Assembly (NCBI GenBank): GCA_016928495.1
Contig: JAFGKQ010000239.1
Location: forward strand, 1 to 7,405
DNA from: Candidatus Fermentibacterales bacterium
GTDB taxonomy: Bacteria; Fermentibacterota; Fermentibacteria; Fermentibacterales; JAFGKQ01
Direction of reading: 5' to 3'
Length of the DNA stretch: 7,405 nt
Position numbers and translations under genes: made by a program
Shown here: positions 2,210-7,405 of the stretch, one piece after another
Numbering within the stretch: position 1 is the first letter of the stretch
Layout: every line of letters starts with the position of its first letter
The notes under the pieces: generated by a model
What the model was told of the DNA's origin: nothing
What the model saw: the letters and a program-made list of their open reading frames with translations, nothing else
Databases searched by the model: none

Positions 2210-3808
2210 TCAGCGCTCCAGGTCCACGAACAGCGTTCTCTCGTTGCTGTAGAGCACCTCGCCCGGCTTCCCGCCCCTCATGCGACGCAGGAACCTCGCA
2301 TCGGTGACGTCCACCGCCACGACGTCGGAGCCTGCGGCCCCTGACCTCTTCGCGGCCAGCGCAGCCGCCCTCAGCAGGACTGCCTCCGGAGGCGGCTCCT
2401 TCCTACCGTCCCTCTTGACCAGCACGTGTGGGCCAGTCTTGCCCCGAGCGTGGAGCCACATGTCGCCCCTCCTGGCGAGCCCGAAGCTGATGCGATCGTT
2501 CTCGGATGCGTTGCGTCCGATGAAGCAGCGCCAGCCTTCGATCATCACCAGCCTACCCGGAGCGTTGCTTTCCCGGCGGTCCCTCCCCGTCTCCGCAGCC
2601 GCTCTCGAGGAGAGGATGGAGGCCGCCTCCTCCTCGGTCATCCCGGGCAGCTCCTCGAGGCGACCTTCCAGAAGTGACACCGACTCCCGCAGCCGGTCGG
2701 CCCTCGACGCCAGCATCTCTCGCTCCCTGTCGACGTTCCTCGCCTTCCTGTAGAGCCTCTCGGCGTTCTCGACAAGGGTCCTCGAGGGCCTCAGCGGGAT
2801 CGTGTGCTGCGCGCCGCCCCAGTCAGTGACGCGGATCTCGGAGAGCCCCCTTCTCCTGCCCGCGCCTGGCCTGGTCTTGAGAAGGTCAGCCCAGAGCCTG
2901 AGCGTCTCCGGGTCCCTGGACATCTCGATGGCCTGTTCCACCCTGGCGAGCAGCCTCGATTGCTTCGAGATCTCAGCAGCGAGACGCCTCTCGAGGCGGT
3001 CTCTCATCGGATGACTGTCCGCGCGCTCCGCGGCGGAGGCGGACAGGAGGGCGGAGAGGGTGTTCTCCACCGGTTTTCCCTTGCCCATGCTGATCGGCAA
3101 CAGGCCCTCCGGGCCGAGCCACGGATGCAGGTCGCCTTCCAGAAGCGCGTCCCTCAGCCTTCGGAGCACGAGCGAGGGATGCTCCCCTCGAAGGCGCGCT
3201 TCCTCCAGAACGGCCCTTGCGGTGGCCGGCCCGACTCCCTCGAGCCCCCGGCACATCTCAGTCGGGGACGGCCCGGAGGAGCCGGTATCGAGAAGGCCCG
3301 TCCGTTCCCACTCCTCGAGGCTTCTCCCGGAGGGGGGAGGGGGCCGGTACCGCTCACCCGGGAGGATCGTCCTGTACCGCGAGAGGCCGGGCGTGACCCT
3401 GCGGGCGCAGGCAACGACCCTGAGGTCCGGGGCAGGCCTGTGGAGGATGATGTTGGCGTTCCTTCCGGTCATCTCGAACACGAGAGCCAGGCCCGAGTCA
3501 TTGCGGGCCGGCGAGAGCCTGATGATGAGAATCCTGTCCAGCCCGGGCTGGTCGACGCCCGAGACCACTCTGCCCTCGAGGTGGTGCCTCCATACCGGTG
3601 GGGCCGACAGGATCTGGCCGGGGCTCGCGCCTTGCGCCGGAAGCCACTCCAGGCCCGGCGAAGAGGGGTCCCAGATGAGTCGGAGCAGGAAGTCCCGGAG
3701 GGGCAACTGGAGCACGGACCGCTCGATCCAGCCGGGTCTGCCGCATCTCCGGCCGACGATGACCGATCGGAGAGCTGGAGTTACGACAGCGAGACTGACT
3801 CCGTCCAT
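2210..3808 (-). CDS. rqcH: NFACT-family ribosome quality control protein (RqcH/Rqc2/FbpA homologue)
   Basis: This 532-residue protein is expected to bind obstructed 50S-peptidyl-tRNA complexes and recruit Ala-tRNA for C-terminal tailing of stalled chains, as shown for Bacillus subtilis RqcH. The NFACT-N domain covers about residues 1-180. It has the conserved D91-R92 pair in LDRILII, then EMTGRNANIIL and a SRYRTILPGERY segment. A helix-hairpin-helix-like LEGVGPATARAVL lies near 189-201. Charged helices at about 269-315 and 345-390 fit the coiled-coil arms. The C-terminal NFACT-R domain (about 426-532) shows GRNASEND, DMWLHARGKTGPHV and GKPGEVLYSNERT. The ATG at 3808 is chosen because M-D-G-V fits the family start. 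The open frame extends to 3904 but would then overlap the divergent yicC. Shine-Dalgarno is weak. Some members were called fibronectin-binding proteins; that label is unlikely to be its main role. Confidence 0.9.
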   Translation of the reverse strand: MDGVSLAVVTPALRSVIVGRRCGRPGWIERSVLQLPLRDFLLRLIWDPSSPGLEWLPAQGASPGQILSAPPVWRHHLEGRVVSGVDQPGLDRILIIRLSPARNDSGLALVFEMTGRNANIILHRPAPDLRVVACARRVTPGLSRYRTILPGERYRPPPPSGRSLEEWERTGLLDTGSSGPSPTEMCRGLEGVGPATARAVLEEARLRGEHPSLVLRRLRDALLEGDLHPWLGPEGLLPISMGKGKPVENTLSALLSASAAERADSHPMRDRLERRLAAEISKQSRLLARVEQAIEMSRDPETLRLWADLLKTRPGAGRRRGLSEIRVTDWGGAQHTIPLRPSRTLVENAERLYRKARNVDREREMLASRADRLRESVSLLEGRLEELPGMTEEEAASILSSRAAAETGRDRRESNAPGRLVMIEGWRCFIGRNASENDRISFGLARRGDMWLHARGKTGPHVLVKRDGRKEPPPEAVLLRAAALAAKRSGAAGSDVVAVDVTDARFLRRMRGGKPGEVLYSNERTLFVDLER

Positions 3809-3835
3809 CTCGGCAGGGGATCTTTCCAGTGTTCG

Positions 3836-3863
3836 TTGGCTTTGCGCGCGAGGCTGGTATAAT
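3836..3863 (+). promoter_or_regulatory. Extended -10 promoter of the yicC-gmk/coaB-udg-dnaB operon
   Basis: TTGGCT (3836-3841, four of six matches to the -35 consensus) is followed after 16 nt by a perfect TATAAT at 3858-3863. TG one base upstream makes an extended -10. This is the only clearly AT-rich patch in the 89-bp divergent intergenic region. The expected transcription start near 3870 gives a leader of about 28 nt to the ATG at 3898. It also rules out the longer upstream reading frame beginning at 3829. Confidence 0.72.
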
Positions 3864-3897
3864 AACCGAAAACTCCGTGAGGGGACCAGAGAGTCTG

Positions 3898-4821
3898 ATG
3901 TCACTGGAATCCATGACCGGTTACGGCAGCGCCAGGAAGCCCTGTGGGGAATCGCTCGAGGTTCTGGTCGAGGCCAGGTCGGTGAACCACCGCTCCGTGC
4001 AGGTCCACATCTCTCCTCGAGAGCTGCCGTTGTCCCTGACGGCGCGCATGGAGGAGCAGGCCAGAAGCCGCTTCACTCGCGGGAGGATCGAGGTGAGGGT
4101 CTCCGTAGCTGCTGCCGGGGACGCGGCCGCCGGCGCAGCCTCGTGCCTTGACATCAACCTCGCCCGTGCTCTCGCCGAGGCCTCGGCATCACTCGCAAGG
4201 GAGCTGGGGATCGAGGAGGACATGACCTCCTCGCGGCTGCTGCGTTTCCCGGGGGTCGTCTGCGCGGGCCCGGCCCAGGCCGTGCCCCCCGGCATGCTCG
4301 ACGATCCGGGTTTCGCGGAGGCACTCCTCGAGATCCTCTCCTCGGCGCTGGACAGCCTTGCGGAGTCCAGAGCGAGGGAGGGCGGCGTGCTTGCCGGAGA
4401 TCTGGCTCGCTCCCTGGAATCGGTGCTCTCGGGGATCGAGGATATAAGACAGGGCGAGGCCCAGAGGGCCGGAGCACGCGCGGCGAGGCTCAGGGCAAGA
4501 ATGGAAGAGATGCTCGAGGGGGCATCCAGGGCGGCGGACCCGGACGGGACCAGGCTGATGCAGGAGGCTGCCATGTTGTCCATGCGCGCGGACGTCACGG
4601 AGGAGTGCGTCAGGACCGAGGCGCATGTCCGCGAGTGCCTCGATCTGCTGGGGGGGGAAGAGGCGGCTCCCGGCATGAGGCTGCAGTTCCTTCTGCAGGA
4701 GATGCAGAGGGAGCTCAACACCATGGGCAGCAAGCTGGACGAGGTGGAGACGACCAGCGCGGTGGTGGGGATGAAGGCGACGGTGGCGTCCATGAAGGAG
4801 CAGGCAGCCAACATTGAGTGA
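3898..4821 (+). CDS. yicC: YicC-family endoribonuclease
   Basis: This 307-residue protein belongs to the YicC family, whose Escherichia coli member is an endoribonuclease involved in small-RNA turnover. The N-terminal domain opens with SMTGYGSA. It continues with EARSVNHRSVQVHISPREL and the RGRIEVRVSV strand, all typical of YicC N-terminal domains. A long helical middle part follows. The C-terminal domain has the hallmark GMRLQFLLQEMQRELNTMGS, with the protein ending in K-E-Q-A-A-N-I-E, the usual family terminus. Length is close to the family norm of about 290. The ATG at 3898 is chosen because it lies just before the SMTGYG motif and downstream of the inferred transcription start. Its last 8 nt overlap the next gene. 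yicC directly before gmk is a widespread arrangement. Confidence 0.95.
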   Translation: MSLESMTGYGSARKPCGESLEVLVEARSVNHRSVQVHISPRELPLSLTARMEEQARSRFTRGRIEVRVSVAAAGDAAAGAASCLDINLARALAEASASLARELGIEEDMTSSRLLRFPGVVCAGPAQAVPPGMLDDPGFAEALLEILSSALDSLAESRAREGGVLAGDLARSLESVLSGIEDIRQGEAQRAGARAARLRARMEEMLEGASRAADPDGTRLMQEAAMLSMRADVTEECVRTEAHVRECLDLLGGEEAAPGMRLQFLLQEMQRELNTMGSKLDEVETTSAVVGMKATVASMKEQAANIE

Positions 4822-6130
4822 GGCGGAAGGCTACGGGATCCTGCTGGTGATATCGGGGCCTTTGGCGGCCGGCAAGACGACTCTGGCGAGGAGGCTCGTC
4901 GAGGAGGTGCCGGGCTGCGTCTTCTCGGTCTCCTGCACTACGCGCGAGCCCCGTGGCAGCGAGAGTGACGGTCTGGACTACCGCTTCACCACTCCTGAGG
5001 AATTCGAGAGCCTCGTCCTGGCGGGCCATTTCCTGGAATGGGCCGAGGTCCACGGGAGCAGGTACGGCACGCCCGCCGGGCCCGTCGATGCCCATCTTGC
5101 GGCCGGCAGGAGCGTCGTCCTGGACATAGACGTGCAGGGCGCCATGCAGGTACTGCGGGCCAGACCCTCGGCCGTCCTGGCGTTCGTGTCCCCGCCCTCG
5201 CTGGAGGTTCTTGCCGGAAGGCTGCGGAAAAGGATGACGGACAGCGCGGGCGAGGTCGAGCGGCGGCTGGGGGAAGCCGTTCGAGAGAGCCGGTGGGCCG
5301 GCGCTTTCGACTACTTCCTGTGCAACGCCGAGCCCGACCCAGCGTTCGAGGAGCTGCGGAGCATCGTGGAGGTCGAGCGGAAGAGGCTCGAGAGATCGCC
5401 CTACCCGGACTGTGTCAGGGCCTACGAAGCGGAGTGGTTCCATGGCCTCGGCTGGTGGAGGGGCCGCTCCGTGGTGGTGACGGCAGGGCCGACCAGGGAG
5501 CCCATAGACGAGGTCAGGTTCGTCTCCAACAGGTCCAGCGGCAGGATGGGATTCGATCTGGCCAGGGCCTTCAGGGACGCCGGCGCGCGCGTGACGCTCG
5601 TTTCCGGTCCCTCTTCGTGTCCGGAGCCGTGCGCCGTCGAGATGGTCAGGGTGACCTCCTCGAAGCAGATGCAGGCGGCGGTCCTGGAGCGAGCAGATGG
5701 CTGCGACCTCGTGGCGATGGCCGCAGCGGTCTGCGACATGAGTCCGGACAGGATGGCCAGCGGCAAGCTCCGGAGGCACGCGCTTCCCCTGGCGATCACG
5801 TTCCAGCCGACCGCCGACATCCTGGCCAGCCTGGCGGGATCCGGGTGCCCCGTGCTGGCCTTCGCCCTCGAGATGGGCGAGGAGGGATCACGCGAGAGGG
5901 CCATGGAGAAGCTGAGAGAGAAGGGCGCCCTGGCGATCTTCCTGAACAGGGGCGACCTGCCGCACCGGGGCATGGAGTCGGAGATGAACGGGGGTGTGCT
6001 CCTCTTCGCCGATGGCTCGTCTCTCGATATTCCCCTCGGCTCCAAGCGCTACGTCGCGGAGAGGCTCGCAGCCGGCATGGGAAGCTGGCTGGCTTCCCGC
6101 GTGAGGGGTACCCGCGGTGGGCCGGGCTAG
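4814..6130 (+). CDS. Guanylate kinase fused to phosphopantothenoylcysteine synthetase (Gmk-CoaB)
   Basis: One uninterrupted 438-residue frame carries two enzymes. Residues 1 to about 207 are a complete guanylate kinase (GMP + ATP to GDP + ADP): P-loop SGPLAAGKTT at 14-23, GMP-binding TTREPRGSESDGLDYRF at 42-58, DIDVQGA at 104-110, and the lid region with RLRKR at 136-140. Residues from about 217 to 425 are CoaB, which joins phosphopantothenate to cysteine, normally using CTP. AGPTREPIDEVRFVSNRSSG, AAAVCDM and SGKLRR are present. Escherichia coli CoaBC residues R206, N210, A275 and K289 correspond at a constant offset to R235, N239, A304 and K318. The flavin-dependent CoaC decarboxylase half is absent. 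The TTG start overlaps yicC by 8 nt; AAGGAG lies 13 nt upstream, which is long. The P-loop departs from the usual GPSGAGKST. Each domain call is firm; joint production as one chain is inferred from the open frame. Confidence 0.93.
   Translation: MSEAEGYGILLVISGPLAAGKTTLARRLVEEVPGCVFSVSCTTREPRGSESDGLDYRFTTPEEFESLVLAGHFLEWAEVHGSRYGTPAGPVDAHLAAGRSVVLDIDVQGAMQVLRARPSAVLAFVSPPSLEVLAGRLRKRMTDSAGEVERRLGEAVRESRWAGAFDYFLCNAEPDPAFEELRSIVEVERKRLERSPYPDCVRAYEAEWFHGLGWWRGRSVVVTAGPTREPIDEVRFVSNRSSGRMGFDLARAFRDAGARVTLVSGPSSCPEPCAVEMVRVTSSKQMQAAVLERADGCDLVAMAAAVCDMSPDRMASGKLRRHALPLAITFQPTADILASLAGSGCPVLAFALEMGEEGSRERAMEKLREKGALAIFLNRGDLPHRGMESEMNGGVLLFADGSSLDIPLGSKRYVAERLAAGMGSWLASRVRGTRGGPG
5457..5473 (+). 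promoter_or_regulatory. Possible internal ribosome-binding site and GTG start for free CoaB
   Basis: GGAGG at 5457-5461 is followed after 9 nt by GTG at 5471, which is in frame as codon V220. This is exactly where the CoaB domain begins (VVVTAGPTREP). The spacing is good for initiation, so a separate CoaB polypeptide of 219 residues could be made besides the fusion. GGAGG also occurs by chance in GC-rich coding DNA, so this is a candidate only. Confidence 0.35.
6103..6108 (+). promoter_or_regulatory. Ribosome-binding site of the uracil-DNA glycosylase gene
   Basis: GAGGGG lies 8 nt before the GTG at 6117, inside the end of the Gmk-CoaB frame. It supports the GTG as the true start and a 14-nt overlap between the genes. 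Confidence 0.6.
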
Positions 6131-6836
6131 CCCCGGGGCGGGAAGCCTCTGGCGGGTGATCGAGTCCTTCGGATTGGAGAGGGTATACCTGAGGCGTCCC
6201 GCGGACGCTGGCCCGACCGCAAGCGCCGGGGAGCCCCGGGGACCGGGTCCAGGCCCCGGCGAGTCCGTGGAGATGCTTCTGGCGGCTCTGCGGGAGAGGG
6301 TCGGGGACTGCAAGAGCTGCGGGCTTTCCGAGAGCCGCACCAGGATCGTGATGGGGGAGGGCAATCCTGACGCCGGGATCATGCTGGTGGGAGAGGGCCC
6401 GGGCAGGACGGAGGACGAGACCGGCCGCCCCTTCGTGGGCAAGGCCGGTCAGCTTCTCGACAGGATACTCGCCTCGATAGAGCTGGACAGGGACAAGGTG
6501 TTCATCACCAACGTGGTGAAGTGCAGGCCCACCGGCAACCGGACGCCGAGCGACAGCGAGATAGCGGCATGCTTCTGGATACTCGAGGAGCAGATAAGCG
6601 CTATGAGACCGGGGCTGATCTGTGCTCTGGGGGCTCCTGCGGCCAGGACCCTTACCGGTCTGCGCAGGGGAATCGGGCAGATGAGGGGAGAGATCCAGCG
6701 CTTCGGGAGAATCCCGGTGGTCGTGACCTATCACCCGGCCGCGCTGCTGCGGTCACCCGCTCTGAAGAGGCCGGTATGGGAGGACATGAAGAGAATGCGC
6801 GATCTGCTCGTGGAGCTAGGGCTGCCGAGGTGCTGA
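6117..6836 (+). CDS. udg: Family 4 uracil-DNA glycosylase with Fe-S cluster
   Basis: This 239-residue enzyme should remove uracil arising in DNA from cytosine deamination or dUTP incorporation, starting base excision repair. Four cysteines fit the family 4 iron-sulfur site: C65 and C68 (CKSC), C136 in NVVKCRP, and C152, sixteen residues later. The active-site motif GEGPGRTEDETGRPFVGKAG spans 92-111. The second motif, with H206 in YHPAALLR, is intact. Residues 1-55 are an extra N-terminal part with a Pro/Gly-rich linker near 33-50. Such extensions occur in some members annotated as phage SPO1 DNA polymerase-related proteins. The GTG start is backed by GAGGGG 8 nt upstream and overlaps the previous gene by 14 nt. 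It ends 1 nt before the dnaB start, placing repair and replication functions in one transcript. Confidence 0.93.
   Translation: MGRASPGAGSLWRVIESFGLERVYLRRPADAGPTASAGEPRGPGPGPGESVEMLLAALRERVGDCKSCGLSESRTRIVMGEGNPDAGIMLVGEGPGRTEDETGRPFVGKAGQLLDRILASIELDRDKVFITNVVKCRPTGNRTPSDSEIAACFWILEEQISAMRPGLICALGAPAARTLTGLRRGIGQMRGEIQRFGRIPVVVTYHPAALLRSPALKRPVWEDMKRMRDLLVELGLPRC
6827..6830 (+). promoter_or_regulatory. Ribosome-binding site of dnaB
   Basis: GAGG lies 7 nt before the GTG at 6838, within the last codons of the glycosylase gene. It supports the GTG start. Confidence 0.5.
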
Positions 6837-6837
6837 G

Positions 6838-7405
6838 GTGACCCAGAGGACGCTCCCCGGCAACTACGAGGCCGAGCGCAGCGTGATCGGGGCGATCCTG
6901 GTGGACCCCGAGCTGGCAGTCGAGATCTTCTCCGTCCTGAAGGCCGATGACTTCCTGGACAGGAAGCACAGGGCCATATACGAGGCCTGCGTCGAGCTGG
7001 ACTCCAGGAGCAGTCTGATCGACCTGGTGACCATCAACGCGGAGCTTGAGCGCAGCGGCAGGCTCGAGGACGCCGGAGGGCTGGAGTACCTGGCGGCCCT
7101 GACGGAGGAGATCCCCACAGCGAGCAGCGTCAAGAGCCACATGGAGATCGTCCGCGACAAGGCCCTGCTCAGGAAGCTGCTCGCCGCCTCGAACGAGAAC
7201 ATGAGAGAGGTCTACGAGTCCACCGACGATGCCAAGACCGTGCTCGACAGGGCGGAGACCAGGGTCTTCAGGATATCCGAGAGCGTGACCACTTCCGACT
7301 TCGTAGCACTGAAAGACCTTGTAGACAAAGGGATAGCGAGCTTCGAGAGACTGCGGGACTCTCAGACCTACATCACGGGCGTGCCGTCCGGCTTCGCCGA
7401 CCTGG
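6838..7405 (+). CDS. dnaB: Replicative DNA helicase DnaB, 5' part only (cut by right edge)
   Basis: The 189 visible residues are the N-terminal domain and linker of the hexameric replicative helicase that unwinds DNA at the fork and contacts primase. LPGNYEAERSVIGAIL near residues 6-21 is the classical DnaB opening. It is followed by DFLDRKHRAIYEAC, LIDLVTINAEL, and GGLEYLAALTEEIPTASSV. The linker helix region comes next. GVPSGFADL at the end is the segment that comes just before the RecA-like ATPase domain, so Walker A and the catalytic part lie beyond the window. Full-length members have about 440-470 residues. The GTG start is 1 nt after the glycosylase stop and has GAGG 7 nt upstream. No intein or other insertion is seen in the visible part, though insertions in dnaB usually lie further downstream. 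Confidence 0.93.
   Translation, partial: MTQRTLPGNYEAERSVIGAILVDPELAVEIFSVLKADDFLDRKHRAIYEACVELDSRSSLIDLVTINAELERSGRLEDAGGLEYLAALTEEIPTASSVKSHMEIVRDKALLRKLLAASNENMREVYESTDDAKTVLDRAETRVFRISESVTTSDFVALKDLVDKGIASFERLRDSQTYITGVPSGFADL

Follow-up and report, generated by a model that had tools for sequence, protein, structure and literature searches.

The closest described relatives of the protein analysed here are the bacterial guanylate kinases (Gmk), such as those of Escherichia coli (2an9) and Mycobacterium tuberculosis (1znw), and the two known arrangements of phosphopantothenate-cysteine ligase (CoaB), which is either joined to CoaC in the bifunctional CoaBC (Dfp), as in Mycobacterium smegmatis (6tgv) and E. 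coli, or encoded as a polypeptide separate from CoaC, as in eukaryotes and streptococci (TIGR02114/TIGR02113). The CoaBC of M. smegmatis is a dodecamer centred on CoaC, with the active site of CoaB at a dimer interface, and the CoaB of this bacterium expressed alone neither forms dimers nor is active, whereas E. coli CoaB alone is dimeric and active (PMC7794376). Linkage of gmk to rpoZ is widespread, with coaBC coming next in some species (PMC9973325).

Here, we explored a window of 7,405 nucleotides, one short contig of a draft genome of a Candidatus Fermentibacterales bacterium (2.31 Mb, 81% complete, 337 contigs), in which Gmk and CoaB are encoded by a single gene. Like bacterial Gmk, the fused protein has a complete kinase domain with the P-loop, the GMP-binding residues and the lid arginines, and its gene occupies the same place in the gene order after yicC; unlike bacterial Gmk, it carries a C-terminal CoaB domain, and rpoZ does not come next. 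The CoaB half resembles that of CoaBC in its fold, in the equivalents of R206, N210, A275, D279 and K289, in its genomic position between gmk and udg/dnaB, and in having an N-terminal partner domain. This partner, however, is guanylate kinase rather than CoaC, the gene for which lies elsewhere, and the K-x-K-K motif is replaced by K-x-x-R. As in the separate CoaB/CoaC systems, CoaB and CoaC of Fermentibacteria are two polypeptides, but the fused CoaB is of the CoaBC type and is joined to Gmk, and the stand-alone CoaC fits the CoaBC profile better. In the open-licence literature, to which our search was limited, we found no paper on a Gmk-CoaB fusion, nor one joining guanylate kinase to CoaBC or phosphopantothenate. 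Thus, the fusion is apparently undescribed, in line with the initial annotation, which knew of no such protein. What is new is the combination, its fixation across a phylum and the displacement of CoaC; each domain by itself is ordinary.

Two complete domains in one reading frame

The fused gene and its parts are as follows.

4814..6130, plus strand: gmk-coaB fusion coding sequence, 438 aa, a single open frame with no stop; TTG start
4841..5371, plus strand: guanylate kinase domain (aa 10-186; PF00625, TIGR03263, model fold against 3tr0)
4856..4879, plus strand: Gmk P-loop GPLAAGKT (aa 15-22), matching GxxxxGK[ST]
5396..5455, plus strand: interdomain linker (about aa 195-214), ~20 residues, partly helical in the model
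5456..6088, plus strand: CoaB (phosphopantothenate-cysteine ligase) domain (Pfam aa 215-396; similarity to about aa 425)
5516..5530, plus strand: CoaB R235...N239 (E. coli R206, N210; alignment to 1u7u)
5765..5776, plus strand: CoaB K318-x-x-R321 (K-x-K-K elsewhere in bacteria; K318 corresponds to E. coli K289; alignment)

That a complete Gmk and a complete CoaB share one frame, as initially annotated, is borne out by profile searches: PF00625 (Guanylate_kin) matches aa 10-186 with 115.6 bits (Pfam cut-off 25.2), PF04127 (DFP/CoaB) matches aa 215-396 with 169.7 bits (Pfam cut-off 22), and the Gmk half scores 188.7 bits against the equivalog TIGR03263 (NCBIfam cut-off 160.45). The CoaBC family TIGR00521 is matched by its C-terminal half only (positions 185-387), with 142.4 bits, below the NCBIfam cut-off of 219.7, and the protein falls outside the definition of bifunctional CoaBC, that is, CoaC (PF02441) and CoaB in one chain with a full-length match to TIGR00521.

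The predicted model of the fused protein, built as a monomer only, has a mean pLDDT of 83.6 and a pTM of 0.80. Its Gmk part superimposes on 3tr0 (Z 20.4, rmsd 3.1, 191 residues) and its CoaB part on E. coli CoaB 1u7z (Z 29.8, rmsd 1.6, 212 residues), the confidence being low in the GMP-binding part (pLDDT <50 at residues 38-57 and 76-82).

Both active sites had been reported to look conserved, and the comparison of 31 fused proteins extends this observation. In the Gmk half, the P-loop lysine, S40, R44, R47, Y56, E75, Y84, T86, D104, D106 and the lid arginines are invariant; S40, R44, R47, Y56, E75, Y84 and T86 are what we take to be the equivalents of yeast S34, R38, R41, Y50, E69, Y78 and S80, with T in place of S80. 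In the CoaB half, aligned to E. coli CoaB 1u7u, the counterparts of R206, N210, A275, A276, D279 and K289 are R235, N239, A304, A305, D308 and K318, and these, too, are the same in all 31 proteins.

Two loops of the fused CoaB depart from the usual pattern. In place of K-x-K-K, which is conserved across bacteria apart from a few exceptions (PMC7794376), there is K-x-x-R, where the first lysine is kept, the second is variable (E/K/P/R) and the third is arginine; given that K-x-K-R is present in some unfused CoaB, K-x-K-K is a common rather than a defining feature of CoaB. In the loop over the phosphopantothenate site (window positions about 5942-5974), the usual N-D is mostly N-x. In addition, the P-loop of the window protein, GPLAAGKT, is unusual, all 30 other fused proteins compared having GPSGAGKT. 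These departures might be taken to mean that one half is a pseudo-enzyme, retained for structure or regulation alone. Such a loss of function appears very improbable, given that the catalytic residues are invariant, that purifying selection acts on both halves (dN/dS 0.04-0.24 in nine pairs), and that the fused frame is the sole Gmk match and the sole CoaB match in its own genome, with no second match to either elsewhere in the phylum at E <= 0.001. We also considered, and rejected, an internal start from which CoaB would be translated independently: most of the proteins have in-frame start codons in the linker, but neither their position nor a Shine-Dalgarno pattern is conserved across the phylum.

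Distribution of the fusion

We searched the window protein against 42 genomes of its phylum, Candidatus Fermentibacteria (Hyd24-12). The complete in-frame fusion, as one match over both domains, was found in 38 of them, with 45-54% identity to the window protein across the genomes other than its own; in 3 more, the match is broken by a contig end (G020, G027, G037), and in the remaining one, G038, which is 79% complete, there was no match to the fused locus. The fusion is also present in the public records of candidate division Hyd24-12 UBA5074 and of a Candidatus Fermentibacteria MAG (L034, L035), which come from two different studies. No relative with separate gmk and coaB was found among the 42 genomes.

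In a draft that is 81% complete and broken into 337 contigs, a short contig such as this one could, in principle, contain a spurious fusion through assembly, binning or sequencing error. The same in-frame fusion in 38 independent genomes, diverged to 45-54% identity, and in the two public records refutes this explanation, leaving it with a negligible probability. Thus, two doubts raised together with the initial annotation, a stop or indel missed at the junction and close relatives retaining two separate genes at this locus, are both laid to rest within the phylum. The fusion is real, old and fixed across the phylum. Its spread through the phylum was absent from the initial annotation, as were the displaced CoaC and rpoZ and the location of CoaC beside pantothenate kinase.

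Outside the phylum, we searched 509 genomes, 343 of them from across the domain and the others from the phyla of G248 (2 genomes), G110 (17) and G373 (147). None yielded a match spanning both domains among the matches listed, which are ordered by E-value such that a spanning match would rank first, whereas a distant fusion appearing as two separate matches could escape notice. The six most suspicious long gmk frames (G366, G178, G248, G235, G110, G221) are not fusions: these are GC-rich frames encoding Gmk alone, with coaBC separate or outside the stretch. In four genomes from the phylum of G110 (G391, G393, G394, G396), the Gmk matches continue past the end of the domain across 2-3 in-frame TAG codons, which probably reflects read-through into the next gene, although TAG may be recoded. 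Within the Fermentibacteria, a 656-aa frame in G041 (L162:2013-3980) resembles a triple Gmk-CoaB-UDG fusion; because the C-termini of both CoaB and UDG turn into unrelated sequence and no other genome has such a frame, we treated it as probably the product of indel frameshifts in this assembly.

Gene neighbourhood and origin of the fusion

The fused gene is embedded in a conserved neighbourhood.

2210..3904, minus strand: rqcH/NFACT-like gene, divergent upstream flank, conserved (PF05833, 130.9 bits; synteny)
3829..4821, plus strand: yicC/yloC endoribonuclease, upstream flank, conserved (PF03755 and PF08340; synteny)
6117..6836, plus strand: family-4 uracil-DNA glycosylase (udg), downstream flank, conserved (TIGR00758, 202.7 bits; synteny)
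6838..7405, plus strand: N-terminal part of the replicative helicase gene dnaB, cut by the contig end, downstream flank, conserved (PF00772; synteny)

The TTG start of gmk-coaB overlaps the yicC stop by 8 nt. Further upstream in the window, between deoB and rqcH, positions 1659-2129 of the minus strand encode a 156-aa protein in which a cyclic-nucleotide-binding domain stands alone, with no DNA-binding part attached.

In Fermentibacteria, the gene order is rqcH(-) / yicC - gmk-coaB - udg - dnaB. Identical flanks surround separate gmk and coaBC genes in WOR-3 (L104), Gemmatimonadota (L082, L112) and other groups (L043, L149, L152, L153, L154), rqcH being absent from some of these unfused stretches as far as they extend. 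The Gmk and CoaB cores are 51-87 nt apart in the fused proteins as opposed to about 590-1200 nt in the unfused loci, where the gap codes for rpoZ and/or the CoaC half of coaBC (an rpoZ product recognised by eye in L082, for example, contains MRVFTPDEVAENTFSKYLGVLVAARYARELNALPRETLPLGQEKKLTTRSLEALTSGQIEFRLV). The order gmk-rpoZ-coaBC, which the initial annotation regarded as usual, is thus indeed found as separate genes in other phyla, in agreement with the literature (PMC9973325), and the suggestion that the joining is a by-product of gene adjacency receives direct support from the identical flanking synteny.

Phylogenetic analysis placed the fused CoaB domains in a single clade (support 100/100) on a long stem (1.02 changes per site), with Gemmatimonadota as the weakly supported sister group (84/3). 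Given that the same flanks enclose separate gmk and coaBC in other phyla, with rpoZ and/or CoaC in the gap, the simplest and most likely account, judging from these sequence comparisons, is that the fusion arose once and in place, when the rpoZ-coaC interval was lost. The ancestral locus would have had the order rqcH / yicC-gmk-(rpoZ)-coaBC-udg-dnaB, and a single event in the ancestor of the Fermentibacteria would have eliminated the intervening segment with rpoZ and the CoaC part of coaBC, bringing coaB next to gmk. Deletion is the mechanism that we infer; a rearrangement or a two-step loss would now look alike.

Under this scenario, CoaC would have survived as a gene of its own beside the pantothenate kinase gene coaX, and rpoZ elsewhere. 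Stand-alone flavoprotein domains are encoded in 39 of the 42 genomes, mostly in frames of ~180-200 aa; in the genome from which the window comes, PF02441 is found in a 182-aa frame on a different contig from the fusion. This protein is CoaC, matching positions 2-175 of TIGR00521 with 162 bits as against 109 bits on the streptococcal CoaC profile, below the cut-off of the latter. The motifs PHxxL, PxM[NH]xRMW and CGxxGxGR are kept in the 34 stand-alone proteins compared, and the stand-alone CoaC sequences form one clade (100/99). Wherever the flank is long enough, coaC belongs to a nadC - coaX - coaC - mtnA-like cluster (L033:413-3201; L115-L142, L164-L167). Thus, CoaC has parted from CoaB and is now next to pantothenate kinase. 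Similarly, rpoZ is present at other loci in 39 of the 42 genomes; in L144-L147, its frame adjoins another long frame and a lipoprotein-like frame of ~420 aa with ACGTQ after the signal. Given the presence of CoaC and rpoZ at other loci, the respective steps are retained, but the link between CoaB and CoaC is gone.

Function of the fused protein

Gmk and CoaB have no substrate or product in common. The Gmk half would catalyse GMP + ATP -> GDP + ADP, and the CoaB half 4'-phosphopantothenate + Cys + CTP -> phosphopantothenoylcysteine + CMP + PPi. Recycling of this CMP by the fused kinase could be envisaged as the reason for the fusion, but cytidylate kinase, although not found in the 81%-complete genome of the window, is encoded in 37 of the 42 genomes of the phylum, so that Gmk is not needed for this purpose. 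Because the two reactions share no metabolite and the CMP released by CoaB has a kinase of its own available, we see no metabolic need for the link and favour a bifunctional enzyme whose two active sites work independently on one chain and which very probably originated at this locus, a single time, in the ancestor of the phylum. Both activities, the use of CTP and the independence of the sites are inferred from the comparisons above, and the main expected consequence of the fusion would be the obligatory 1:1 production of the two enzymes.

It seems unlikely that the fusion functionally couples CoA synthesis to the supply of guanine nucleotides, whether by inter-domain allostery or by an effector common to both halves, for instance (p)ppGpp or CoA thioesters. 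The fusion persists in three families of the phylum and was nowhere seen to have been reversed, which would be compatible with such coupling, and (p)ppGpp inhibits some Gmk enzymes. Mycobacterial CoaBC, for its part, is regulated by CoA thioesters (PMC7794376). Nevertheless, Gmk uses GMP and ATP whereas CoaB releases CMP, the latter being within reach of cytidylate kinase in most of the genomes, and chance fixation of neighbouring genes accounts for the joining by itself.

Compatible with independent active sites on one chain is the possibility that Gmk serves as a new scaffold for CoaB in place of CoaC, such that self-association of Gmk pairs the CoaB domains and forms the active site at their dimer interface. 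The failure of M. smegmatis CoaB to dimerise or work without CoaC (PMC7794376), the detachment of CoaC from CoaB throughout the phylum, the short, partly helical linker of near-constant length, and the E. coli Gmk entries 2an9 and 2anb, oligomeric by title, all point in this direction. However, E. coli CoaB dimerises and functions by itself (PMC7794376), so that a scaffold may be unnecessary, and we consider this role possible but rather doubtful. Still less probable is a dependence of the CoaB half, whose nucleotide and substrate loops have diverged, on Gmk, be it structural, as in the case of a scaffold, or through the use of GTP, the released GMP being re-phosphorylated by the fused Gmk. 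Returning to the enzyme with two independent sites, the kinetics of its CoaB may differ from those of other CoaB, given the K-x-x-R motif, the N-x loop and the long stem branch; the loop departures, read from alignments, may be leads to an altered mechanism but do not amount to proof.

Implications

The fusion is a clear example of a conserved gene neighbourhood giving rise to a protein fusion, and serves as a marker character for the Fermentibacteria. In practical terms, automatic annotation may name just one of the two enzymes in the fused protein. Finally, with CoaB joined to guanylate kinase and CoaC encoded elsewhere, these bacteria are a natural test case for the dependence of CoaB on CoaC in assembly and substrate passage.
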